Of a stretch of DNA of 38,874 nucleotides, positions 11,199-38,874 are shown piece by piece. Under the pieces are notes generated by a model, which saw only the letters and a program-made list of their open reading frames with translations, had not been told where the DNA came from and searched no databases. The position numbers were made by a program, and so were the translations under genes. The DNA lies in the NCBI GenBank assembly GCA_947588605.1, contig CANPYK010000020.1, forward strand, positions 1 to 38,874, written 5' to 3'. Source of the stretch: an uncultured Oscillospiraceae bacterium (GTDB lineage Bacteria > Bacillota > Clostridia > Oscillospirales > Oscillospiraceae). The first letter of the stretch is position 1, and each line of letters starts with the position of its first letter.

Positions 11199-11696
11199 GA
11201 GCGCCCTTAACCTCCCCCCTGGGGGAGGTGGCGCGCAGCGCCGGAAGGGAGGCGGCGGGAAAAAGGTTTGCGGCTTGCACCGCATTTTTTATATTCCCAC
11301 CCGCCCGCCCCCGCCGCCGTAGGGGTCGCTGTCCCCGGCGACCCGCCCATCGTCTATTGACCCGCCCCGAACACCGCCGTACGGGCCGCCGCCCACGGCG
11401 GCCCATCCCCCCGATAACCGCCAATTTCCGTTTTATCGGAACCGTCCCGTTCCGCAACGTGGCACGGGCGGGTTTAGAACCCGCCCCTACAGGGGATATG
11501 GAAAGTTACCCCATATAAATTATTTCGGAGATTAACGAAATACGGGTCGCCGGGGACGGCGACCCCTACGGCGGTTAACGGAGGCAATCCGAAAACTGCA
11601 ACGAGGGCCGCCGTGGGCGGCGGCCCGTACGGCGGTGATTGGATACAATTTAAAATGTAGGGGCGGGTTCCAAACCCGCCCGTGCCTTTTTTTACC
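11199..11696. repeat. repeat-filled intergenic region: E-D module, B pair and 222-bp A-B-B-A' composite
   Basis: No gene is supported. 11208-11249 is an intact family E (ACCTCCCCC/GGGGGAGGT at 11210-11229). 11252-11319 is family D with a hairpin followed by CATTTTTTATATT. 11320-11425 holds two inverted B units (GGGTCGC and GGGCCGCC types). 11463-11492 is A, two B palindromes follow, and 11655-11684 is inverted A; this composite spans 222 bp, the same length as 31702-31923. D could terminate plus-strand transcription from the phosphoesterase gene. The A' end lies directly downstream of the sigE stop. Confidence 0.85.
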
Positions 11697-14902: not shown

Positions 14903-14918
14903 AACCTCCCCCCTGGGG

Positions 14919-14981
14919 CTGCGCCCGCAGGCGCGTGTCGGAGGCCAACCGCCGCAAAGCGGCGGCTCTTAGGCCGGAGAC
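14919..14981 (+). repeat. 63-bp palindromic element F, copy 1, nested in family E
   Basis: Starts CTGCGCCCGCAGGCGCG and carries CCGCCGC-AAA-GCGGCGG, then CTCTTAGGCCGGAGAC. Removing these 63 bases rejoins CCTGGGG with GAGGTGGCGCG, matching the intact E copies at 11208 and 36112. No clear target duplication is seen. Confidence 0.8.
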
Positions 14982-15171
14982 GAGGTGGCGCGCAGCGCCG
15001 GAAGGGTCGCGCGGCGGCGGGAAAAAGGTTTGTGGCTTCGCCGCATTTTTTATATTCCCCACCCACCCGCCCCCGCCGCCGCACATCCCAAAATCCCGCC
15101 GTAGGGGTCGCCGTCCCCGGCGACCCGCCTATCGACCATTGACCCGCCCCGAACACCGCCGTACGGGCCGC

Positions 15172-15234
15172 ATCTCCGCGCTAAGAGCCGCCGCTGCGCG
15201 GCGGTTGCGCTGTGATGCGCGCCTGCGGGCGCAG
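15172..15234 (-). repeat. 63-bp palindromic element F, copy 2, nested in a B palindrome
   Basis: Inverted copy. Read on the minus strand it starts CTGCGCCCGCAGGCGCG and ends CTCTTAGCGCGGAGAT, 63 bases. Its removal rejoins GGGCCGC with GCCCACAGCGGCCC, within one base of an intact B stem-loop (compare 4866-4887 read inversely). Confidence 0.8.
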
Positions 15235-15742
15235 GCCCACAGCGGCCCATGCCCTCGATAACCGACATCGGAGGTCATCGAAACGCGGGTCGCCGGGGAC
15301 GGCGACCCCTACGGCGTAATTGGAACGGATACAGATTGTCGGAACCGGTCTGTCATCCAACGCTCGCTGCCCCCCTGCCCCCCTCCTACGAGGAGGGGGC
15401 TCCGAGACGGGGGCGGGTGCGATTTGCCGGAACCGTTCCCATCACGCCACGTGGCACGGGCGGGTTTAGAACCCGCCCCTACAGTTTTTAATTGCGTTCA
15501 ATCAACGCCGTAGGGGCCGCCTCTCTTGGCGGCCCGCGTTCCGATGACCTCCCATGTCGTTTGAATGGGATAACCTTCCAAATCGTTCCTTCGTCCCCCG
15601 TCCCCGCCGCGCGGGCAAATCAAAGAATGCGCCGCAGGCGCAAACCTTTTTCGCCCCCTCCTCGTAGGAGGGGGGCAGGGGGGAAGCGAAGGTTGGATGA
15701 CAGGGGGCTCCCGATAAACCGCCCCCGCAATTCACAAACCCC

Positions 15743-15792
15743 TTGACAACCTCAATACCTCGTGATATGATGTATTCCACGATAGGAGGTAT
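15743..15792 (+). promoter_or_regulatory. padR promoter with overlapping inverted-repeat operator
   Basis: TTGACA (15743-15748), a 17-base spacer and TATGAT (15766-15771). ATACCTC (15755-15761) and GAGGTAT (15786-15792) are inverted repeats spanning the -10, with nested CGTG (15761-15764) and CACG (15778-15781). The right arm includes the ribosome binding site AGGAGG. This fits autoregulation by the PadR protein, an inference. Confidence 0.7.
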
Positions 15793-15795
15793 GCT

Positions 15796-16113
15796 ATGGA
15801 CAGTCAGTTGAAGCGCGGGCTGTTGGATGTGTGCGTTTTGGCGGCGATCAAGAGCGAGGACTCATACGGATACCGGATCATGAACGACCTGAAGCCGTAT
15901 CTGGAGCTCTCCGAATCGACCTTGTATACCATTCTGAAACGGTTGGAGACGGCCGGTATGCTGACTGTCCGCACCGCCGAGCACGGCGGCAGGCTCCGGA
16001 AATATTACCACATCACCGGCGAGGGCCTGCGGCGTATCCGGGAGTTCCGGGAGGATTGGAAGGAGATCCTGTCCATCTACCGGTTTGTGGTCAAGGAGGA
16101 TGAACATGAATAA
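15796..16113 (+). CDS. PadR-family transcriptional regulator
   Basis: 105 residues. Winged-helix DNA-binding protein of the PadR family: LKRGLLDVCVLAAIKSEDSYGYRI at the N-terminus, then YLELSESTLYTILKRLETAGMLTV (recognition helix) and the wing (GGRLRKYYHITGEGLRRIREF). These repressors usually control the next genes and respond to small molecules or membrane stress. ATG 15796 is six bases after AGGAGG. It overlaps the following DUF1700 gene by eight bases, forming a padR-DUF1700-DUF4097 operon found in many Firmicutes. Confidence 0.92.
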   Translation: MDSQLKRGLLDVCVLAAIKSEDSYGYRIMNDLKPYLELSESTLYTILKRLETAGMLTVRTAEHGGRLRKYYHITGEGLRRIREFREDWKEILSIYRFVVKEDEHE

Positions 16114-16705
16114 GCGGGAATTTTTGGCGCGGCTTCGCGAGGGCCTGCGCGGCCTGCCCCGGGAGGACATAGAGGAGCGGGCGATTTTCTACAGTGAGAT
16201 GATCGACGAGCGCCTGGAGGAGGGGCTGTCGGAGGCGGAGGCGGTCGGGAAGCTGGGACCGGTCAGCGATGTCGTCGCCCAGATCCTGGCGGACACGCCG
16301 CCCGCCGAGTCTGTCCGGGAAAAGAGCAAGCCTCGCGGGCGTGTACGGGCCTGGGAGATCGTTCTTTTGGTCCTGGGCTTTCCGGTGTGGTTCCCCCTTC
16401 TGATCGCCGCCTTCGCGGTGCTCCTCGCGGCGGTCATCGTCCTGTGGGCGCTGGTCATATCGCTGTGGGCGGTGGACGCTTCCCTGCTGGGGTGCGTCCT
16501 CGGCGGGGCCGTGTCCGCCGCGGCCTTCTTCCTCCGGGGGAACGGCCTCACGGCGGCGGCCATGCTGGCGGCGGGGCTGTGCTGCGCGGGACTGGCGATC
16601 TTCTGCTTTTTCGGGTGTAAGGCGGTCACAAAAGGGGCCCTGTGGCTGACGAAGAAGACGGCGTCAGGCGTCAAACATCTGTTCATGGGAAAGGAGACGG
16701 CATAA
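16106..16705 (+). CDS. DUF1700 (HAAS-type) membrane protein
   Basis: 199 residues. The cytoplasmic N-terminal helical domain (MNKREFLARLREGLRGLPREDIEERAIFYSEMIDE, then EGLSEAEAVGKLGPV) is the hallmark of DUF1700 proteins. About four hydrophobic segments follow from residue ~78 (IVLLVLGFPVWFPLLIAAFAVLLAAVIVLWALV onward). ATG 16106 is chosen over the ATG at 16100 because CAAGGAGG ends only one base before the latter. Role unknown; the family accompanies PadR and DUF4097 proteins, so an envelope-response function is plausible. It ends TAATG, with the next ATG sharing one base. Confidence 0.85.
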   Translation: MNKREFLARLREGLRGLPREDIEERAIFYSEMIDERLEEGLSEAEAVGKLGPVSDVVAQILADTPPAESVREKSKPRGRVRAWEIVLLVLGFPVWFPLLIAAFAVLLAAVIVLWALVISLWAVDASLLGCVLGGAVSAAAFFLRGNGLTAAAMLAAGLCCAGLAIFCFFGCKAVTKGALWLTKKTASGVKHLFMGKETA

Positions 16706-17667
16706 TGAACAAAACGGCAAGAAACTGGCTGACCGCCGCCGCGATCCTCATCCTTCTCGGCGTGGTCCTTTTTGCGGTCGCCATGGCCGCCGGCGGCGGG
16801 GATCTCAACAAGCTGGGGACGGTCAACTATACCACCAACACCTACGAGCCCGGCAGCGATTTTCAAAACATCTCCATAGACGTGGAGACCACCGAGATCG
16901 AGTTCGTTCCCTCGGAGGACGGGACCTGCAGGGTCGTCTGCTTTGAGGACGAAAAGGTGAAGCACGCCGTCTCCGTCCAAAACGGCACGCTGACCGTCAA
17001 AACGGTGGATACCCGCAAGTGGTATGAACACATTTCCGTCTCCTTCGCAAGCCCGAAGCTGACGGTTTATCTGCCGCAAAGCGCCTACGGCTCCCTGGCG
17101 GTCAAAACGGATACCGGCGATATGACGATCCCGGAGGATTTCTCCTTTGACACCCTCACCGTTGATGGCGATACCTGCGATGTGACCTGTTGCGCGTCCG
17201 CCGGGGAGCGGGTGGAGATCGACCTGAGCACCGGCGCCATCGCCCTGGAGGGTGTGACGGCGGAGCGGATGAGGCTGAAAACGGACACGGGCCGCGTTCA
17301 AGTGCGCCGCGCGGCGGTCGGCGAAGGCGTCCGGGTCGAAACGGACACGGGCCGGGTGACGCTGGAGGATGTGACCTGTCAAGCCCTCGACGCGAAGAGC
17401 GACACCGGCTCCATAACGCTCACAAACGTGGTCGCGTCCGGGAATTTGACCGTCGAGACCGACACCGGGGACATAGCGCTGAACGACTGCGACGCTTCGG
17501 AGCTCTCCCTTCAAACCGACACCGGCGACGTCACGGGCCGGCTTTTGTCGGACAAGATCTTCCTCACCGACACCGGCACGGGCCGCGTCAGCGTTCCAAG
17601 CTCCGCCACCGGCGGCAAATGCCGGATCAAGACGGCCACGGGAGACATCCGGGTGGAGGTCAGGTGA
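16705..17667 (+). CDS. DUF4097-family beta-repeat protein with membrane anchor
   Basis: 320 residues: one N-terminal membrane segment (LTAAAILILLGVVLFAVAMA, 9-28), then an extracytoplasmic beta-solenoid-like domain. About seven repeats carry the core [KEQL]-[TS]-D-T-G (KTDTGDM, KTDTGRV, ETDTGRV, KSDTGSI, ETDTGDI, QTDTGDV, LTDTGTG), spaced about 20 residues in the second half, as in DUF4097 proteins. Three cysteines near the middle (TCDVTCCAS) are unusual for an exported protein. The start overlaps the DUF1700 stop by one base. Function is not established. Confidence 0.85.
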   Translation: MNKTARNWLTAAAILILLGVVLFAVAMAAGGGDLNKLGTVNYTTNTYEPGSDFQNISIDVETTEIEFVPSEDGTCRVVCFEDEKVKHAVSVQNGTLTVKTVDTRKWYEHISVSFASPKLTVYLPQSAYGSLAVKTDTGDMTIPEDFSFDTLTVDGDTCDVTCCASAGERVEIDLSTGAIALEGVTAERMRLKTDTGRVQVRRAAVGEGVRVETDTGRVTLEDVTCQALDAKSDTGSITLTNVVASGNLTVETDTGDIALNDCDASELSLQTDTGDVTGRLLSDKIFLTDTGTGRVSVPSSATGGKCRIKTATGDIRVEVR

Positions 17668-17677
17668 CCGCCACCCC

Positions 17678-17706
17678 TTGCAATCCCGCCGGGAATGTGG
17701 TATCTT
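17678..17706 (+). promoter_or_regulatory. promoter for mutS2
   Basis: TTGCAA (17678-17683), a 17-base spacer and TATCTT (17701-17706) preceded by TGG (extended -10), 34 bases before the mutS2 ATG. Confidence 0.6.
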
Positions 17707-17739
17707 ATCCCTATCAAACATGTTTCCCGGAGGTGCGCC

Positions 17740-20106
17740 ATGACGCTTTATGAAAAATCCCAGGCGATATTGGAGCTGCCGGCGGTGCTCAATATGCTGG
17801 CCGCCGAGGCCGTCAGCGACGGGGCCAAGGAGGCGGCGCTTTCGCTGTCGCCTACGTCCGACCGGGCGGAGGCGGAGCGGCGGCTTCAGGAGACCACGGA
17901 CGCCAGGGAGATGATGACGCTCTACGCCGCGCCCTCCTTCGCCGGGGTGAAGGACATCCGGGACAGCCTCCGCAGGGCCGACGCCGGCGGGATGCTCAAT
18001 ACTAAGGAGCTCACCGAGATCGCCCAGGTCCTGCGGGAGGCCCGGGGGGCCATCGCATACGCCTCCGGGAGCGAGAAGGGCGCGGGGAGCATCGGCTATC
18101 TTTTCTCGTCCCTCCACGCCAACAAATATCTGGAGGAGAAGATCACAAACTCCATCATCGGCGAGGGGGAGCTTGCCGACTCCGCCTCCCCGGAGCTTGC
18201 GGACATCCGCCGCGCCATGCGGGTGGCCGGGAGCCGTGTCCGGGAGGCCCTGCAGAAGATCATCACCTCCCCGTCCTACCAAAAGGCCCTCCAGGAGCCC
18301 ATCATCACCGTGAAAAACGGCCGCTACGTGGTGCCGGTGAAGGCCGAGCACAAGGGGGCGGTGCCGGGGCTCACCCACGATATCTCCGCCTCCGGGCAGA
18401 CGCTGTTCATCGAGCCCATGAGCGCCGTGAAGGCCAATAACGAGATCCGGGAGCTCCTGGCCCGTGAGGAGCGGGAGATCGAGCGCATTTTGCGCGAGCT
18501 CAGTGCCGAGGCGTCGGACTTCGGGGAGAGCATCGCCCTCGATTATAACCTCCTCACCCAGCTCGACCTCATCTTCGCCAAGGCCAAGCTGAGCTACAAG
18601 CTCAACTGCGTCTGCCCGGAGCTTTCCGAGAAGGGCGAGCTGGTCCTTAAAAAGGCCCGCCACCCCCTCTTGAAGCAGTCCGAGGCCGTGCCCATCGACA
18701 TCGCTCTGGGCGGGGACTTCGACACGCTGGTCATCACCGGCCCCAACACCGGCGGCAAGACGGTGAGCCTCAAGACCCTGGGGCTTTCCTGCCTCATGGC
18801 CCAATGCGGCCTGCACATCCCCGGCGGGGACGGCTGCCGCGTGCCCCTTTTCGACAAGGTCCTGGCGGACATCGGCGACGAGCAGTCCATCGAGCAGTCT
18901 CTCTCCACCTTCTCCTCCCACATGACCAACATCGTGGGCATCCTCTCGGAGTGCGGGGAGGGGTCTTTGGTGCTCTTCGACGAGCTGGGCGCGGGCACGG
19001 ACCCGGCGGAGGGCGCGGCCCTGGCCGTGGCCATTATCGAGTACGCCCGGTCCGTGGGGGCCAAGATCGCCGCCACCACCCACTACGCGGAGCTGAAGAT
19101 CTACGCCATGACGGAAAAAGGCGTGATGAACGCCTCCTGCGAATTTGACGTGAAGACCCTCAAGCCCACCTACAAGCTCCTCATGGGCATCCCCGGCAAG
19201 TCCAACGCCTTCGCCATCTCCGAGCGCCTCGGCCTCCCCGGCCACATCATCGACGACGCCCGCCGGAGGATGGACAAGGGGGACGTGGACTTCGAGGAGG
19301 CGCTCACAAAGCTGGAGGAGAACCGCAAGGACGCGGAAACAAAGCGCGAGGAGGCCGCCGCCGCCCTCAGGCAAGCCAAGGCGGAGCTGGACAGCGCCGA
19401 GGAGACGCGCCGGCGCGCCGAGGAGGAGCGGCTTAAATTCACCAAAAACGCCCGGAGCGAGGCCGACCGCATCCTGGAGGACGCCAAGCGCGCCGCCGAC
19501 GAGGCCTTCCGAGACATCGAGCGCCTGCGCCGGGAGGCGGCGTCCGACACCGACTGGCAGCGCTTCAACGAGGCCAAGGCCCAGCTGCGGCAGGGCCTCA
19601 ACGCGGCCCAGGAGAAGGTGACGCCGGAGCGCGCCGCCCCGGTGGAGCGGGAGCGCACCCGGGACGCGGTGAAGGGCGACACGGTGGAGATCCTCTCCAT
19701 CGGCTCCAAGGCGGAGGTCCTGAACGTCAAGCCCGACGGGACCCTGGAGCTCCAGGCCGGCATCATGAAGGTCACCGCCCGCCAGAGCGAGGTCCGGGTG
19801 GTGGAGGGCGAAAAGGTGAAATTCAAGCCCGCCGCCGTCTCCGTCCCCGCCTCCGGCGGCAGCGCCAAGGCGGAGCTGGATGTCCGGGGCATGACGGCGG
19901 ACGAGACGGTGGCCCTTTTGGAGCGCTTCATCGACAACGCCCAGCTGCGGCACCTAAACCAGGTGACCATCATCCACGGCAAGGGCACCGGCGTTTTGCG
20001 CAAGGCCGTCCAGGATACCCTCAAGCGCTCCAAGCAGGTGAAGAGCTACCGCCTGGGCCGCTTCGGAGAGGGCGAGAGCGGCGTCACCATCGTGGAGATC
20101 AAGTGA
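17740..20106 (+). CDS. mutS2: endonuclease MutS2
   Basis: 788 residues, full length. MutS-type ATPase without mismatch-recognition domain I. In other Firmicutes MutS2 is linked to suppression of recombination and to splitting of collided ribosomes. Core and clamp region 1-320, Walker A GPNTGGKT (334-341), Walker B VLFDE (411-415) with the signature GAGTDPAEG, then a KOW-like and coiled-coil region (~500-640) rich in EEARR-type helices. The C-terminal Smr nuclease domain has LDVRG (713-717) and HGKG (746-749). ATG 17740 follows GGAGG at six bases. It stands alone, with its own promoter. Confidence 0.96.
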   Translation: MTLYEKSQAILELPAVLNMLAAEAVSDGAKEAALSLSPTSDRAEAERRLQETTDAREMMTLYAAPSFAGVKDIRDSLRRADAGGMLNTKELTEIAQVLREARGAIAYASGSEKGAGSIGYLFSSLHANKYLEEKITNSIIGEGELADSASPELADIRRAMRVAGSRVREALQKIITSPSYQKALQEPIITVKNGRYVVPVKAEHKGAVPGLTHDISASGQTLFIEPMSAVKANNEIRELLAREEREIERILRELSAEASDFGESIALDYNLLTQLDLIFAKAKLSYKLNCVCPELSEKGELVLKKARHPLLKQSEAVPIDIALGGDFDTLVITGPNTGGKTVSLKTLGLSCLMAQCGLHIPGGDGCRVPLFDKVLADIGDEQSIEQSLSTFSSHMTNIVGILSECGEGSLVLFDELGAGTDPAEGAALAVAIIEYARSVGAKIAATTHYAELKIYAMTEKGVMNASCEFDVKTLKPTYKLLMGIPGKSNAFAISERLGLPGHIIDDARRRMDKGDVDFEEALTKLEENRKDAETKREEAAAALRQAKAELDSAEETRRRAEEERLKFTKNARSEADRILEDAKRAADEAFRDIERLRREAASDTDWQRFNEAKAQLRQGLNAAQEKVTPERAAPVERERTRDAVKGDTVEILSIGSKAEVLNVKPDGTLELQAGIMKVTARQSEVRVVEGEKVKFKPAAVSVPASGGSAKAELDVRGMTADETVALLERFIDNAQLRHLNQVTIIHGKGTGVLRKAVQDTLKRSKQVKSYRLGRFGEGESGVTIVEIK

Positions 20107-20129
20107 GAAACAGTCGCCTCCAAGCGGTT

Positions 20130-20148
20130 TTGTCAAAATCGCACTAAA
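20130..20148. repeat. near-perfect palindrome after mutS2
   Basis: GCGGTTTTG-T-CAAAATCGC (about 20130-20148) is a nine-base near-perfect inverted repeat (one G-T wobble) 24 bases after the mutS2 stop and upstream of the HPr-like gene promoter. No T-run follows. It could be an operator or a weak terminator. Confidence 0.4.
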
Positions 20149-20187
20149 ATTTTCAGTTTTGAGGCCAATATTCAACACTATTATTCA

Positions 20188-20217
20188 TTGACTGGACGAG
20201 CCCCTTTTTGATAAAAT
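20188..20217 (+). promoter_or_regulatory. promoter for the HPr-like gene
   Basis: TTGACT (20188-20193), an 18-base spacer and TAAAAT (20212-20217). The transcript would have a leader of about 55 bases before the ATG, with AAGGAGGGG just upstream of the start. Confidence 0.7.
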
Positions 20218-20278
20218 GTGGTCAGCAATGTTGATGGAGCCGCGCGGCCAAGCCGCACGAATTTAAGGAGGGGCATCC

Positions 20279-20542
20279 ATGTTTGTTAAGACAGTTGAGG
20301 TCAAAAACCAGGTCGGCCTTCGCGCTCGTCCCGCGACCTTCTTCACCCAGAAGGCCAACGAGTTCAAGTGCCAGGTCTGGATCGAGAAGGGCGACCGCCG
20401 CGTCAACGCCAAGAGCCTCCTGGGCGTCCTGTCTCTGGGCGTCATCAAGGGTATGTCCGTGTCCATCGTCGCCGACGGCGAGGACGAGGAGCGCGCCGTG
20501 GAGACCCTGTGCGAGCTCATCTCCCGGGATTTCGCCGAGTAA
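20279..20542 (+). CDS. HPr-family protein lacking the phosphorylatable His15 (Crh-like)
   Basis: 87 residues with a whole HPr fold. In HPr, His15 in GLHARPA takes phosphate from enzyme I for sugar transport. Here the segment is N-Q-V-G-L-R15-A-R-P-A, with Arg encoded by CGC. Ser46 in NAKSLLGVLSLG keeps its exact position, so phosphorylation by HPr kinase remains possible. Bacillus Crh similarly has Gln15 with Ser46 and acts only as a CcpA co-regulator. A regulatory rather than transport role is therefore inferred. The gene stands alone between mutS2 and uvrC with its own promoter and hairpin; no ptsI lies nearby. Confidence 0.88.
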   Translation: MFVKTVEVKNQVGLRARPATFFTQKANEFKCQVWIEKGDRRVNAKSLLGVLSLGVIKGMSVSIVADGEDEERAVETLCELISRDFAE

Positions 20543-20565
20543 GTGAATTTTGAAGCATAAAACGG

Positions 20566-20603
20566 CCTGTTTCAAGAAAATCTGAAACAGGTCGCTTTGC
20601 TAT
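20566..20603 (+). terminator. hairpin after the HPr-like gene
   Basis: CCTGTTTCA (20566-20574), eight-base loop, TGAAACAGG (20583-20591), then TCGCTTTGCTAT. The stem is perfect, but the T-tract is weak, so termination may be partial. Confidence 0.6.
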
Positions 20604-20631
20604 ACCCGCCACAAGGAAAGGAGGACCGCCG

Positions 20632-22473
20632 GTGGAACTGAATCCCAAGCTTCCGGAGCTGCGCGAGAAGGCCGCGGCGCTCCCCTTAAAGCCCGGGTGC
20701 TACATCATGCGCGCCAGGGACGGCACGGTCATCTACGTGGGGAAGGCCAAGGCCCTCAAAAACCGGGTCAGCTCCTACTTCCACGGCTCCCACAACGCCA
20801 AGACCGAGGCCATGATCGCCAACATCGACACCTTCGAGGTCATCATCGCCAAGTCCGAGTTCGAGGCGCTGGTCCTGGAGAACTCCCTCATCAAGCACCA
20901 CACGCCCAAGTACAACATCCTCTTAAAGGACGACAAGGGCTATCCCTTCGTGCGCCTGGACGTGAAGTCCCGCTACCCCCGCTTCTCCATCGCCTCCCGG
21001 CGGGCCAAGGACGGGGCGGAGTACTTCGGCCCCTTCGGCTCCCGTGGGAACACCAAGGCGGCGCTGGAGATGCTGTTGAAGGCGTTGAAGCTCCCCACCT
21101 GCTCCCGGCGCTTCCCACGGGATTTAGGGAAAGAGCGGCCCTGCCTTAACCACCACATGGGCGTCTGCGACGCCTGGTGCCGGGGCGTCCTCACCGAGGA
21201 GGACTACCGCGCCCGCGTGGACGAGGCCGTCATGGTCCTCAAGGGCCGGGGCCGGGAGCTGACGGCGCGGCTCACCGAGCGCATGAACGAGGCCGCCGAG
21301 GAATTGCGCTTCGAGGAGGCGGCGCGCCTTCGCGACACCGTGAAGGCCCTGGCCCTTTTGGAGACACGCCAGACGGTGCTCAACAAGGGCGCCTCGGACA
21401 CCGACGCCCTGGGCGTCTTCTCCGGTCAGGTCAAGTCCGCTTTCGCCGTCCTCCACTACGTCCAGGGCCAGCTTTTGGCCAAGGACTGCGAGCTTTTCGA
21501 CGACCCCCTGGGGGAGCCGGCGGAGAGCCTGTCCCTCCTGGCGCGCCAGTATTACGGGGACGCGGACCTCATCCCCTCCCGTGTGCTCCTTCCCGCCGAG
21601 ACGGAGGACATGGAGGAGCTCCAGCAATTCCTCACCGAGAAGGCCGGCCACGCCGTGGCCGTCACCGTCCCCCAGCGGGGGATGTACCGGGAATTCCTCA
21701 CCGCCGCCGCCGACAACGCCCGTGAAGAGTCAGAACGCAACACCACCGCCACGGAGCGGGTGTCCAAAACCGCCCAGTGGCTGGGGGAGGCCCTGGGCCT
21801 TGCGGCCCCGCCGGAGCGGGTGGAGAGCTTCGACATCTCCAACACCGGCGCGGACGACGTGGTGGCCTCCATGGTGGTCTTCGTGGGCGGCAGGCCCAAA
21901 AAGAGCGACTATAAGAAATTCAAGATGAAGACCGTGGAGGGCCAGGACGACTACGGCTCCATGCGGGAGGCCGTGGGCCGGCGCTTTGCCCGGTACGTCG
22001 CCGGGGATCCCGGCTTTTCGGCCCTGCCGGACCTCCTCCTCATCGACGGCGGGGACAAGCACGCCACCGTGGCCAAGGAGACGCTGGACGCCTTAGGCGT
22101 CACGGTGCCCATCTTCGGCATGGTGAAGGACGACCGCCACCGCACCCGCGCCCTCGTCACCCCCGAGGGGCGGGAGATCTCCATCCAGGCAAACCCGGCG
22201 GCCTTCGCCTTCATCGGAAACATCCAGGAGGAGACGCACCGCTTCGCCATCGAGTACCACCGGTCCCTGCGCTCCAGGCGCGTGAAAAAATCCGGCCTCG
22301 ACGGCATCCCCGGCGTGGGGGAGAAGCGCAAGGCGGAGCTTCTCAGGAAATTCAAGAGCATCAAGGCCATTGAGGCCGCGAGCCTGGAGGAGCTGGCCGC
22401 CGCGGTCCCCCAAAACGCCGCCAAAGCCGTCTACGAGCATTTCCACAAAGAGGAAAGGGAGGAGGAACCGTGA
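20632..22473 (+). CDS. uvrC: excinuclease ABC subunit C
   Basis: Nucleotide-excision repair nuclease that makes both incisions around a UvrB-bound lesion. 613 residues, normal length. N-terminal GIY-YIG nuclease (GCYIMRARDGTVIYVGKAKAL from 22), the Cys-rich stretch near 160-185, the UVR motif for UvrB contact (LRFEEAARLRDTV), the RNase H-like 5' nuclease (ESFDISNTGADDVVASMVVF, LLLIDGGDKH) and a C-terminal helix-hairpin-helix (GIPGVGEKRKAELL). GTG 20632 follows AAAGGAGG. It overlaps rsmD by four bases (GTGA). Confidence 0.96.
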   Translation: MELNPKLPELREKAAALPLKPGCYIMRARDGTVIYVGKAKALKNRVSSYFHGSHNAKTEAMIANIDTFEVIIAKSEFEALVLENSLIKHHTPKYNILLKDDKGYPFVRLDVKSRYPRFSIASRRAKDGAEYFGPFGSRGNTKAALEMLLKALKLPTCSRRFPRDLGKERPCLNHHMGVCDAWCRGVLTEEDYRARVDEAVMVLKGRGRELTARLTERMNEAAEELRFEEAARLRDTVKALALLETRQTVLNKGASDTDALGVFSGQVKSAFAVLHYVQGQLLAKDCELFDDPLGEPAESLSLLARQYYGDADLIPSRVLLPAETEDMEELQQFLTEKAGHAVAVTVPQRGMYREFLTAAADNAREESERNTTATERVSKTAQWLGEALGLAAPPERVESFDISNTGADDVVASMVVFVGGRPKKSDYKKFKMKTVEGQDDYGSMREAVGRRFARYVAGDPGFSALPDLLLIDGGDKHATVAKETLDALGVTVPIFGMVKDDRHRTRALVTPEGREISIQANPAAFAFIGNIQEETHRFAIEYHRSLRSRRVKKSGLDGIPGVGEKRKAELLRKFKSIKAIEAASLEELAAAVPQNAAKAVYEHFHKEEREEEP

Positions 22474-23015
22474 GAGTCATCACCGGCACGGCCCGCGGCC
22501 GCACCCTGCGGGAGCCCGCCAATTATGACGTCCGCCCCACCACCGGCAAGGTGAAGGAGGCCATGTTCAACATCCTCCAGTTTAGGCTGGAGAACGCCCG
22601 GGTCCTGGACCTCTTCGCCGGCACGGGCCAGCTGGGCATCGAGGCGCTGAGCCGGGGGGCGGCCTCCTGCGTCTTCGTGGACCGCTCGCCGGAGAGCCTG
22701 AAGCTCGTGCGGGAGAATCTGCGCGCCACGGGCCTCAAGGACCGGGCCACCGTGGTCAAAAGCGACTCTTTGGCGTATCTGGAGCTGGCCCGGGGCTTCG
22801 ACCTTATCTTCATGGACCCGCCCTACGCCGAGAAATTTCTGGAAACCGCGCTGAATCTCGTGGAGAGGTTTGACATTCTCAATAAAAATGGTATAATTAT
22901 GTGTGAAAGCGACAGGACCCGGACCCTGCCGGAGTTGGCGGGGGACCGGTATACCCGCCGGGAGTACCTTTACGGCCGGGTGAAGCTCACCGTTTACGGG
23001 AGGAACGACCTATGA
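22470..23015 (+). CDS. rsmD: 16S rRNA (guanine966-N2)-methyltransferase RsmD
   Basis: SAM-dependent methyltransferase that modifies G966 of 16S rRNA during 30S assembly. 181 residues: RxITGTARGRTL opening typical of RsmD, SAM-binding DLFAGTG (47-53), and the amino-methylase catalytic motif DPPY (116-119). GTG 22470 shares four bases with the uvrC stop, with GGGAGGAGG before it. The stop likewise overlaps coaD by four bases, and the rsmD-coaD pair is widely conserved. Confidence 0.95.
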   Translation: MRVITGTARGRTLREPANYDVRPTTGKVKEAMFNILQFRLENARVLDLFAGTGQLGIEALSRGAASCVFVDRSPESLKLVRENLRATGLKDRATVVKSDSLAYLELARGFDLIFMDPPYAEKFLETALNLVERFDILNKNGIIMCESDRTRTLPELAGDRYTRREYLYGRVKLTVYGRNDL

Positions 23016-23491
23016 AGATCGCCGTCTACCCCGGCTCCTTCGACCCCATTACCTTGGGGCACCTGAACATCATCAAAAGGGCCTCCCGCCTTTTCGACAA
23101 GGTCATCGTCTGCGTGGCGGTGAACTCCTCCAAGCGCCCCCGCTTCTCCATGGAGGAGCGGACGGACTTCGTCCGCCGTGTCATCGGCAAATACGGCAAC
23201 GTGGAGGCAGCCTCCTTCGACGGGCTTTTGGTGGATTTTGCCAAGTCCCAGGGGGCCAATTTCATCGTCAAGGGCCTGCGGGCCGTGTCGGACTTCGAGA
23301 TGGAGTTCCAGATCGCCCTTCTCAACAAAAAGCTGGCCCCGGAGATCGAGACGGTCTTTCTGACCGCGGATGAGAAGTATACATACCTCTCCTCCACCAT
23401 CGCCCGGGAGATGGCCATGTACAACGCCGATATCTCCAAGGTCGTCCCCCGGGAGATCGCCCGGGACGTCCTGGATAAGCTCTCAAAATAA
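23012..23491 (+). CDS. coaD: phosphopantetheine adenylyltransferase
   Basis: Fourth step of coenzyme A synthesis: 4'-phosphopantetheine plus ATP to dephospho-CoA. 159 residues. The nucleotidyltransferase motif GSFDPITLGHL (8-18), with the T/HxGH-type histidine, and YLSSTIARE (125-133), which binds the ATP phosphates, are intact; VKGLRAVSDFEMEFQ (87-101) is characteristic. It begins with an ATGA overlap on rsmD, so uvrC-rsmD-coaD are translationally coupled. Confidence 0.96.
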   Translation: MKIAVYPGSFDPITLGHLNIIKRASRLFDKVIVCVAVNSSKRPRFSMEERTDFVRRVIGKYGNVEAASFDGLLVDFAKSQGANFIVKGLRAVSDFEMEFQIALLNKKLAPEIETVFLTADEKYTYLSSTIAREMAMYNADISKVVPREIARDVLDKLSK

Positions 23492-23513
23492 AAGAAGAAA
23501 GAGGTACATTCGT

Positions 23514-24020
23514 ATGGGTAACGACGTGCAGCAACTGTTGGACATGCTCTACAATATGATCACCGACGCCTGGGGGCTGCCTCTGGGGGCGGAGAAGTGC
23601 GTCATCGAGCGGGACAAGGTCCTGGACCTTCTGGACGAGATCAAGGCCCAGCTCCCTGGGGAGATCGCCGAGGCGCGCCGTCTCGTAGCGGCCAGGACCG
23701 AGTATGTGAACAACGCCAAGCGCGAGGCCGAGTCCCTGCGCCGCGTGGCGGAGCAGAAGGCCCGCCAGATGGTGGACCAGGAGGAGATCGTCCGCGCCGC
23801 CCGCCAACGCGCCACCGAGATCGTCGCCGCCGCCGAGCAGAAATCCGCCGAGCTGCGCCGCGTCGCCAACGACTACGCCGACGACGCCCTCCGCCGCACG
23901 GAGGAGGCCATCGCCGAGGCCCTCGGCGAGGTCCGCGACTCCCGCTCCCGCTTCCGCACCGCCTCCGCCGCCGCCATGCCCCAGCGCGACGCGGGAACCA
24001 ACGTGGATGTAGAAATGTAA
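23514..24020 (+). CDS. coiled-coil protein downstream of coaD (unrecognised)
   Basis: 168 residues. A short globular head (VQQLLDMLYNMITDAWGLPLGAEKCVIERDKVLDLLDEIKAQLP) is followed by ~90 residues of charged heptad-like helix (ARRLVAARTEYVNNAKREAESLRRVAEQ, then REATE/AEQKSAEL type) with no membrane segment. The head resembles small proteins encoded beside coaD in other clostridia, sometimes loosely named ATPase-like; I see no nucleotide-binding motif. It is reminiscent of DivIVA or ATP-synthase b helices by composition only. ATG 23514 follows AGAAAGAGG; the strong terminator behind it closes the operon. Confidence 0.75.
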   Translation: MGNDVQQLLDMLYNMITDAWGLPLGAEKCVIERDKVLDLLDEIKAQLPGEIAEARRLVAARTEYVNNAKREAESLRRVAEQKARQMVDQEEIVRAARQRATEIVAAAEQKSAELRRVANDYADDALRRTEEAIAEALGEVRDSRSRFRTASAAAMPQRDAGTNVDVEM

Positions 24021-24025
24021 AGCCC

Positions 24026-24059
24026 AGGAAGGCCGCTCCGCGGCCTTCCTTTCGTTTTG
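24026..24059 (+). terminator. intrinsic terminator closing the uvrC-rsmD-coaD operon
   Basis: AGGAAGGCCGC (24026-24036), loop TCC, GCGGCCTTCCT (24040-24050), then TTCGTTTTG. An 11-bp perfect stem. Confidence 0.88.
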
Positions 24060-24436
24060 CCCCGCATCCAGCCCCCTCCCAGGCCGGGGTGGTGATACAA
24101 TTCGCGCGGCGGCGGGAAAAAGGTTTGCGGCTTGCGCCGCATTTTTTATATTCCCCACCCACCCGCTCCCGCCGCCGCACACACCACCCCTGCCGCTTCG
24201 CGGCTGTCCCCGACCTTGGAGGGGCAACGTAGTTGGAGGTAGGTGCGATTTTTCGGAACCGCTCTATCGTCCAACGCTCGCTGCCCCCCTGCCCCCCTCC
24301 TACGAGGAGGGGGCTCCGAGACCGAGGCGGGTGCGTTTGTTCGAAACCGTTCCGGTATCGCAACCTCTTTTGCCCCTCCCAGGTCGGGGTGGCGCGAAGC
24401 GCCGGGGTGGTTCCGTCTATCCAACCGCCCAAATAA

Positions 24437-24800
24437 CCGCACCCGCCTCCGTCCCAGAGCCCTCCCCGCGGGGCGGCTGCGCCCGCAGGCGCGCATCACG
24501 AGCGCAACCGCCGCGAAGCGGCGGCTCTTAGCGCGGAGATGGAGGGGGAGGGGTGAGGTGGGAGCCAAAGGGCTGCAACCGGTTTCGATGAACGGACCCA
24601 CCTCATCCGGCGCCTGCGGGCGCCACCTTCCCCACTTTGTGGGGAAGGCTGGGACGGGGAACGAGGGACGGGGGACGGGGGCCCGAATACCCCGGCCCTG
24701 CGGGGCCACCCCTTTTTCCGAAAAAACAGGGGTCAAGGGGAATAAGGATGCGGCGCTTCGCGCCGCGTTTTATAAAAAATTGCGCCGCAAAGCGGCGCAA
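24437..24800 (+). repeat. mosaic repeat G, copy 1
   Basis: 364 bp, nearly identical to 25188-25550. It contains CCTCCCC/GGGGAGG-type stems, GGCGCC-TGC-GGGCGCC, and a terminal pair of hairpins (GCGGCGC-TTC-GCGCCGC, then GCGCCGC-AAA-GCGGCGC) around TTTATAAAAAAT. An F element is embedded at 24477-24540. Confidence 0.85.
24477..24540 (+). repeat. element F, copy 3 (64 bp), nested in G
   Basis: Begins CTGCGCCCGCAGGCGCG and ends CTCTTAGCGCGGAGAT. Removing it rejoins CCGCGGGGCGG with GGAGGGGGAGGGG, close to the F-less G copy at 31365-31645. Confidence 0.8.
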
Positions 24801-24975
24801 AACTTTTTTCACCCCCTTTGGGGCAAAGGGGGTCAGGGGGATTCGAGCCCCCATTAGCCTCCCCTTCAGGGGAGGTGGCGCGAAGCGCCGGAAGTGTCGC
24901 CGCAGCGGATAAATCCAACCTACCGATAACCGGCATTTCCCGTTTTATCGGAACCGTTCCCGTCACGCAACGTGG

Positions 24976-25138
24976 CACGGGCGGGTTTAGAACCCGCCCC
25001 TACAGGGAATGTGGAAGGTTATCCCATATAAATAACATCGGAAATCCTCGAAACGCGGGTCGCCGAGGACGGCGACCCCTACGGCGTTAATTGGAAACAT
25101 TCCAAAAACTGTAGGGGCGGGTTCCAAACCCGCCCGTC
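24976..25138. repeat. A-B-A' composite element, short class (163 bp)
   Basis: A (24976-25005), one B palindrome (GGGTCGCCG/CGGCGACCC near 25058-25080), inverted A (25109-25138). It matches 4785-4945 in layout. The upstream flank GTTTTATCGGAACCGTT is shared with the copies at 4751 and 11429. Confidence 0.8.
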
Positions 25139-25187
25139 CCCGCCGCGGCGGATACAGGGTTTGAAGCCTGCACACGGTTCCAATAAA

Positions 25188-25550
25188 CCGCACCCGCCCC
25201 CCGGTTTAGAGCCCTCCCCGCGGGGCGGCTGCGCCCGCAGGCGCGTTTCGGAGCGCAACCGCCGCGAAGCGGCGGCTCTTAGCGCGGAGATGGAGGGGGA
25301 GGGGTGAGGTGGGAGCCGAAGGGCTGCAACCGGCTTCGATGAACGCACCCACCTCATCCGGCGCCTGCGGGCGCCACCTTCCCCGCTTTGTGGGGAAGGC
25401 TGGGACGGGGAACGAGGGACGGGGGACGGGGGCCCGAATACCCCGGCCCTGCGGGGCCACCCCTTTTTCCGAAAAAACAGGGGTCAAGGGGAATAAGGAT
25501 GCGGCGCTTCGCGCCGCGTTTATAAAAAATCGCGCCGCAAAGCGGCGCAA
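25188..25550 (+). repeat. mosaic repeat G, copy 2
   Basis: Direct repeat of 24437-24800, 751 bases downstream. Differences are scattered substitutions, mostly keeping base pairing. It embeds F at 25229-25291. Confidence 0.85.
25229..25291 (+). repeat. element F, copy 4 (63 bp), nested in G
   Basis: Same ends as the other copies and the same position within G as copy 3, so copies 3 and 4 probably arose by duplication of an already interrupted G. Confidence 0.8.
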
Positions 25551-31364: not shown

Positions 31365-31645
31365 TTGCGCCGCTTTGCGGCGCAATTTTTATATAAAGGC
31401 GGCGCGAAGCGCCGCAACCTTATTCCCCTTGACCCCTGTTCGGAAAAAGGGGTGCCGCCGCAGCGGCGGGGTATTCGAACCCCCGTCCCCCGTCTTAGCC
31501 TTCCCCGCAGGGCGGGGAAGGTGGCGCCCGCAGGCGCCGGATGAGGTGGGTCCGTTCATCGCAACCGGTTGCAGCCCTTCGGCTCCCACCTCACCCCTCC
31601 CCCTCCCCGCCCTGCGGGGAGGGCTCTGAAGCGGAGGCGGGTGCG
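31365..31645 (-). repeat. mosaic repeat G, copy 3, inverted and F-free
   Basis: Reverse complement of most of 24437-24800, lacking the 63-64 bp F unit and with scattered changes. Its uninterrupted GCAGGGCGGGGAG arm is the empty site for the F insertions in copies 1 and 2. Confidence 0.8.

Positions 31646-38590: not shown

Positions 38591-38874
<284 letters not shown>

Follow-up and report, generated by a model that had tools for sequence, protein, structure and literature searches.

The closest described systems to the element reported here are the repetitive extragenic palindromes (REPs) and REPINs of bacteria, together with the REP-associated tyrosine transposases (RAYTs). As described in parts of PMC8266576, TnpA-REP of E. 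coli cuts single-stranded REP DNA at CT and requires the tetranucleotide GTAG and a bulged stem. REPINs are regarded, in passages of PMC3116915, as mobile and as inserted into or beside other REPINs. Insertion of REPs into palindromes is already in print: the section of PMC3733652 on this subject places the GTAG-23 REPs of T. roseum inside small palindromes present in hundreds of copies and lists two other cases, and a further passage states that REPtrons can disappear through deletion. Here, we analyzed F, a non-coding unit of 61-64 nucleotides (nt), which occurs four times in a 38,874-nt stretch of DNA from an uncultured Oscillospiraceae bacterium (the window). The window is one of the 68 contigs (C20) of the source genome (G000), which measures 2.34 Mb and is 99.84% complete.

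Like REPs and REPINs with their RAYTs, F is small and non-coding, with a tetranucleotide ending in AG at the base of a bulged stem, and it is high-copy, extragenic and hairpin-forming, as is expected of a GTAG/RAYT-type REP. Of the other traits of that class, a constant tag and a cognate RAYT/Y1 gene, neither was found for F. Its 5'-end dinucleotide is CT and resembles in this the CT of the E. coli REP as presented in PMC8266576. Unlike REPs and REPINs, F is a fixed 63-nt unit of two hairpins with a varying tag and no Y1 match in the source genome, and its usual point of entry is 3' of the loop, in hairpins of many kinds. The GTAG-23 REPs of T. roseum and the CGTC-1 REPs of H. neapolitanus are likewise inserted within other palindromes, but according to the section in PMC3733652 each family sits in one kind of palindrome, whereas F is found in many host types. 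A side rule, an orthologous empty site or a junction analysis is not part of that section.

F is mobile and has inserted repeatedly into different palindromic repeats, in a clean manner that usually costs 0 or 1 nt. We collected 104 distinct copies with canonical ends, of which 99 were used (five had less than 20 nt of flank). The copies were found with a pattern that fixes the ends, and the ends were then confirmed by empty sites. For these, F was masked and counterparts had to align over at least 11 nt on each side, with an identity of at least 84% on the left and 80% on the right. An F-less counterpart running across the junction was obtained for 87 of the 99 copies, and in 16 cases the match was 100% over the aligned stretch. 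Clustering of the flanks at 72% identity gave 39 host contexts. Twenty of them revealed no change in length near the junction, 7 were one base shorter when filled, 1 was two bases longer, and 11 had no counterpart in the DNA compared. In one of the seven one-base contexts (CTTTTTGGAAAAGG/GGG; the slash marks the junction), the difference is confined to a run of A close to the junction, and 2 of its 7 copies are exact. No target-site duplication, a trait expected of MITEs of DDE transposases, was found in the 28 contexts with an empty counterpart, in agreement with the first-pass annotation, which had seen none. Duplication hidden by misplaced ends was considered and rejected, because the inserted sequence is constant between different hosts. 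When the ends were allowed to slide by 3 nt, 3-5 matching bases were found in 24 of 39 contexts as a raw count.

We corroborated the mobility of F by comparison with a related species of the same genus (G021), where the orthologous site of copy 1 is empty. The single large gap in the alignment comprises exactly the 63 nt of F. The SPFH/Band-7 gene and the terminator-like hairpin that precede copy 1 are also found upstream of the empty site, which holds the host hairpin of copy 1 (E) without F. The region syntenic to copies 3 and 4 is also devoid of F in G021, but the repeats differ there, so that it is not a clean empty site. Within the source genome, 40 rows fall into 11 host types. Identical F sequences recur in at least two host types in 11 instances, and the hosts are alike in two of these 11. 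The proposed movement of a very small non-coding unit, with GC-rich palindromes as its targets, is borne out by the F-less counterparts and by the orthologous site. As a separate observation, contig C18 of G021 (L200 / L292) carries an E hairpin matching the host of copy 1, followed by two more E copies, all of them F-less.

The joined flanks form a hairpin scoring at least 15 in 29 of the 39 contexts (one copy each), compared with 145 of 652 control positions. Part of this enrichment may be an intergenic effect, since the controls, placed 150-700 nt away, were not limited to intergenic DNA. The side of the junction was compared independently of these controls. Among the 29 strong-hairpin contexts it lay 3' of the loop centre in 24, centrally in 2 and 5' in 3 (binomial p 5e-5). 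When the best hairpin was taken for all 99 copies, 53 junctions lay in the 3' arm, 26 at the border of loop and 3' arm, 15 in the loop and 5 in the 5' arm. Targeting of hairpins with a preferred side is well supported by these data. An entry that is always into the arm, as first suggested, overstates the case, since 10 of the 39 contexts form no strong hairpin and some junctions lie in the loop or at its border with the 3' arm. Examples are CCTCCCCCCTGGGG/GAGG, ACCCCTTTTTCGGAAAAA/GGGGT, CCCTCCCCGCAGGGCGG/GGAGGG and GGGCGGGATTTA/CCCGCCC. A G directly follows the 3' end of F in 34 of the 39 contexts, and in the last example the 3' side is used although it is C-rich. No fixed target tetra- or pentanucleotide, as would mark an element derived from IS200/IS605, was found 5' of the left end: the base before F is G in 21, A in 13, C in 3 and T in 2 of the 39 contexts, and the left flanks differ. 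F is preferentially oriented with its 5' end towards the loop and its 3' end towards the foot of the stem. Because a dyad is symmetric in double-stranded DNA, yet F is oriented to it, the form recognised would be a single strand in its folded state or a cruciform arm.

The ends of F are constant (CT...AGAY). A hairpin CTRCGCC-CGCA-GGCGYG is followed by a linker and by G-S-S-C AA CCGCC...GGCGG CTCTTA G-S-S-C, with a 3' end that is mostly GGAGAT. F was taken at first for a single palindromic unit. Instead, it consists of two hairpins, a 5' hairpin with the loop CGCA and a longer, bulged 3' hairpin, and this pairing is maintained via compensatory changes. In 36 distinct F sequences pairing was kept in 96.8% of cells, and changes on both sides of a pair were seen in 33 cells compared with 8.2 in shuffles (0 of 500 shuffles were as high). 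The pairs with such changes number five, a value reached by 11 of 500 shuffles, and they are spread over three of the four helices. Support is weak for the outermost helix (columns 17-21 with 60-64), where pairing is 87.2% and double changes are absent. Among 153 distinct places in all DNA compared, the inner four-base helix read GCGC/GCGC at 77 and GGCC/GGCC at 68. The rare variants GGTC/GACC (2), GGGC/GCCC (1) and GGAC/GTCC (1) fit no reading other than an inverted repeat and rule out a direct repeat of GCGC/GGCC. One row set did not include L058, which is a chimera, or L038, both of them odd copies, and the e-type copies (those within the 'e' repeat described below) were trimmed by one base. 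Energy folding gave little further information, with z-scores of -1.2 (copy 4, DNA), -0.25 (copy 4, RNA), -2.0 (copy 1, RNA) and -0.29 (copy 1 in its host, DNA).

The tetranucleotide at the foot of the bulged 3' hairpin ends in AG in 97 of 99 copies. Together with the bulged hairpin and the 5' CT, this makes F resemble the substrates of RAYT-type Y1 (HUH) enzymes. Other signatures were looked for as well. Terminal inverted repeats, as carried by MITEs of DDE transposases, were not found in 60 distinct cores, where 2-6 of 12 terminal positions match (mean 4.1). Integron attC sites have the consensus boxes R'' (RYYYAAC) and R' (GTTRRRY), and 0 of the 60 cores carry them on either strand. An Rfam search of the window and 16 of 107 outside loci gave only rRNA and tRNA at the gathering score and no match to F; two matches around copies 1 and 2 (E 0.16 and 0.74) were both under gathering.

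A covariance model built from 36 distinct copies recovered the four window copies at E <= 2e-19, with the next window match at 0.11, and thereby upheld the places, strands and lengths (63, 63, 64 and 63 nt) of the first-pass annotation. The assumption that all copies share the same ends holds except for copy 1, whose 3' end is GGCCGGAGAC and not GCGCGGAGAT. In this copy the swap between GGCC and GCGC is mirrored on the opposite side of the stem. Removal of F was said to restore an intact host, and the three host contexts (E, B and G) do have F-less counterparts. The B junction, however, is often one base short (15 of 19 rows, all genomes pooled), whereas the E and G contexts lose 0. Copies 3 and 4 need not be two insertions, because both lie within one duplicated block (24500-24778 / 25251-25529, 97% identity). 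Coordinates are summarized in Table 1. Between the repeat islands, the window carries ordinary genes (17695-23015: MutS2-like with MutS domain V and Smr, UvrC, and a Cons_hypoth95 methyltransferase), and its last positions (38591-38874) are the 5' portion of a 16S rRNA gene.

Table 1. Copies of F in the window, their host hairpins and intact hairpins of the same kinds
Feature	Position	Strand	Remarks
F copy 1	14919-14981	+	63 nt, GGCC type, ends GGAGAC; within E hairpin
E host hairpin, left part (CCTCCCCCCTGGGG)	14905-14918	+	
E host hairpin, remaining 3' arm (GAGG)	14982-14985	+	
F copy 2	15172-15234	-	63 nt, GCGC type, linker CATCACAG; within B hairpin
B host, 3' arm on F strand (GCGGCCC)	15165-15171	-	
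B host, 5' arm and loop on F strand (GGGCCGCTGTGGGC)	15235-15248	-	junction 1 base shorter than in empty B copies
F copy 3	24477-24540	+	64 nt, linker CATCACGAG; within G hairpin
G host of copy 3, left part (CCCTCCCCGCGGGGCGG)	24460-24476	+	
G host of copy 3, remaining 3' arm (GGAGGG)	24541-24546	+	
F copy 4	25229-25291	+	63 nt, consensus F; G hairpin in duplicate of the copy-3 block
G host of copy 4, left part (CCCTCCCCGCGGGGCGG)	25212-25228	+	
G host of copy 4, remaining 3' arm (GGAGGG)	25292-25297	+	
Intact F-less E hairpin	11207-11230	+	empty counterpart in source genome; repeat family D17
Intact F-less G hairpin	31572-31641	-	used as empty counterpart

In the source genome, the covariance model detected at least 61 matches, of which 57 reached 49 bits and 4 were weak. 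This number is a lower bound, because 150 of 4507 first-look candidates were scored. Three of the weak matches (33.6 bits) are a related hairpin ending in GAGTCGCA in another repeat, and the fourth is an interrupted F. A 17-nt motif of hairpin 1 occurs 58 times, well beyond chance, compared with 0 for a reversed-pattern control. BLAST revealed F in 6 of 40 genomes. All six, namely the source genome, G011 (97% complete), G016 (92%), G017 (76%), G021 and G022, are among the 25 genomes of the same genus, and at BLAST sensitivity no F was found in 15 genomes from other families of the order. With stricter filters, the covariance model detected F in 12 of 295 genomes from the order (7 of 148 genera) and in 1 of 199 genomes from the phylum (the source genome only). 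A DNA pattern of hairpin 2 matched at least 107 stretches in a collection of named genomes, and the model gave 120 matches at E <= 0.05 on 100 of these loci. Among the matches listed, 80 titles named Oscillospiraceae, Eubacteriales and other Clostridia, a few giving only Bacillota or uncultured bacterium; the genera among them include Gemmiger, Subdoligranulum, Oscillibacter, Pseudoflavonifractor, Lawsonibacter and Agathobaculum. Three contigs of a viral collection also matched the pattern. Since cultured strains carry F (Gemmiger formicilis ATCC 27749 and Pseudoflavonifractor capillosus An827), it is not an assembly artefact. Of 43 distinct copies in the window and in further stretches of the source genome, 40 lie outside the open reading frames predicted by a simple script. 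Their neighbouring genes are convergent in 15 cases, codirectional in 11, opposite in 11 and divergent in 3, with 3 lacking a call.

We lean, with slightly better than even confidence, towards the view that F is a REP-like non-autonomous mobile element that depends for its movement, as folded single-stranded DNA, on an enzyme supplied in trans. F would travel as a folded single strand, and the enzyme would recognise its folded 3' hairpin. The target hairpin would be extruded from the palindrome or exposed during replication, and F would be joined just 3' of its loop. Several results weigh against this view. Ten of the 39 contexts have no strong hairpin, in three of the 29 strong ones the junction is 5' of the loop centre, and the contexts, clustered at 72% identity, are not fully independent. 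The count of further pair types in F is within the ordinary range, being reached by 157 of 500 shuffles, and one inner-helix pair is broken in 4 of the 153 distinct places. The foot tetranucleotide varies (GGAG 70, CGAG 14, ACAG 5, GTAG 4, GAAG 3 and 3 singles; n=99). No strand bias was detected in 43 copies, neither for GC skew (23 vs 20) nor for gene direction (22 vs 21), and replication-coupled single-strand transposition might leave one. GC skew is a weak proxy here, because it does not track gene direction (r = -0.06). The search for a mover adds to these points. No Y1_Tnp match was found in the nearly complete source genome, although the same search finds it in E. coli. Among the 34 same-genus genomes searched, the F-bearing G011 and G016 also gave no match, and G017, G021 and G022 gave only partial ones above the cut-off (best 71 bits, positions 53-121, in G021). 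Near full-length Y1 matches occur in four genomes that both searches covered (G010, G013, G018 and G019), and F was detected in none of these. A Y1/RAYT gene carrying F, which the first-pass annotation had envisaged, is not supported so far.

The same searches bear on the reading of F as a classical REP moved by a RAYT/Y1 transposase, with the gene lost by the strain or missing from the assembly. The tetranucleotide ending in AG at the base of the bulged hairpin, the 5' CT, the Y1 (PF01797) matches in 18 of the 34 genomes and the deletion of REPtrons noted in PMC3733652 all fit it. Three of the six F-bearing genomes, the source genome included, are without a match, however, and the tag varies, so that we regard a classical REP as unlikely. 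An RNA intermediate, in which F RNA would be reverse transcribed at a 3' end within the hairpin, is compatible with the compensatory pairing, some of it by G-U pairs, and with the one RVT_1 (PF00078) match in the source genome. The domain was not found in the F-bearing G011, G016 and G017, F has no Rfam match, and it occurs on both strands equally with respect to tandem neighbouring genes. This absence of strand preference also speaks against any role that requires transcription of F in one sense. We consider the RNA route very improbable. IS110 (PF02371) was not matched in the source genome or in the F-bearing G017 among the same 34 genomes. None of the three families is matched in all six carriers, of which G017 is 76% complete, and Y1/RAYT, reverse transcriptase and IS110, the only families searched, were rejected as the mover. 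An autonomous F-ended element split around a gene was not found in the source genome either: the 58 hairpin-1 matches lie at F copies detected by the model except at C5:75807 and C2:18599 (the second is one of its weak matches), and both of these are F copies interrupted by other repeats.

Movement without a dedicated enzyme was also considered. In template switching, the growing strand would fold back on itself once the 5' arm and loop had been copied, and its 3' end, by then in the 3' arm, would jump to F and return. Junctions would then fall on one side, a few nt beyond the loop, which is where most strong-hairpin contexts have them, and the loss of 1 nt would be tolerated. It does not easily account for the same two ends in 39 contexts that share little junction sequence (flank identity 0-3 nt), nor for identical F copies in different hosts. 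Passive copying needs no compensatory change, yet the structure of F is conserved in that way. We judge template switching improbable, and replication slippage alone, proposed in the first-pass annotation, meets the same difficulty with constant ends in different hosts. Finally, F and its hosts could be one composite repeat in which F never moved alone. Some contexts do look block-copied, namely copies 3 and 4 and a set of nine nearly identical copies within the 'e' repeat. The F-less counterparts, the orthologous empty site in G021 and the 11 host types refute this reading for the whole family, and we give it hardly any credence: F and its hosts do not form one invariant block, and a relative does hold an orthologous empty site.

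F is itself interrupted by other repeats in two copies. In L229 (source genome, C5:75823-75490, minus strand), F lies within a host hairpin and is interrupted twice. The first interruption is a palindromic 'e' repeat in the hairpin-2 region. The second is an element with the inverted ends TACTAATATCTA...TAGATATTAGTA, located between CTCTTA and TAGGCC with a possible TA duplication. A second F (L232, C2:18615-18578, minus strand) is split at the identical position by this 'e' repeat. Three nested layers can be distinguished in L229, where F sits inside its own host hairpin and is itself interrupted. In addition, nine loci (L064-L072) carry a diverged 61-nt F fixed within the 'e' repeat (GCGCCTGA/GGGCGACC) with near-identical flanks, as if transported inside a larger composite. 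An F-less 'e' counterpart of these loci exists. Two chimeric copies, L231 (C22:34700-34638) and L233 (C1:162269-162331), combine a canonical 5' part of F with a 3' part and flank of the GAGTCGCA type, as would result from recombination between two copies at CTCTTAGCG. In a different repeat, a related two-hairpin family (...CAAGCGAGCAACC...CTCTTAGCGAGTCGYA) was observed at L085, L088, L114, L229, L230 and L231, and an F-less form of that repeat is seen in L125. In Candidatus Gemmiger excrementipullorum (L093, L105 and L109), hairpin 2 appears to be doubled in tandem with two different inner stems. A wider interpretation is conceivable, although we hold it to be doubtful: F may be the founder of a class of mobile nucleic acids that targets secondary structure itself, entering any hairpin just 3' of its loop by means of an enzyme of an undescribed kind, and these Clostridia may harbour communities of such tiny units, nested in layers, in which one unit parasitises the hairpins of another.

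Outside bacteria, the GC clusters of yeast mitochondria are comparable. According to parts of PMC4478555, GC42 is a palindromic non-coding mobile unit of 42 nt that, like F, concentrates changes in the loop, merges with other clusters and has no known mover. Unlike F, it has an AG target-site duplication, and it belongs to a different genome and host. Double-hairpin and repetitive hairpin-forming elements of fungal and sponge mitochondria share the double hairpin and the intergenic spread; they reside in eukaryotic organelles, and the passages of PMC2800124 on them give no hairpin-side rule. Insertion sequences that target REPs also use palindromic repeats, and ISPa11 (IS110 family) lacks the usual direct repeats, but as presented in parts of PMC1525189 they code for a transposase and insert into the REPs of their own host. 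In the open-licence papers searched, the two-hairpin unit, its many hosts, the orthologous empty site and the 3'-side rule were not found, nor was anything relevant on palindromic or intergenic repeats in Faecalibacterium or Oscillospiraceae/Ruminococcaceae.

In summary, F makes the spread of REP-like repeats testable, as it offers dozens of sharp filled and empty pairs, an orthologous empty site and a rule of entry. Any enzyme proposed as the mover must account for entry 3' of the loop, constant ends, the absence of a duplication and junctions that lose 0 or 1 base. Should the mover be something other than a Y1 protein, common bacteria would hold a hairpin-directed way of joining DNA that is new.

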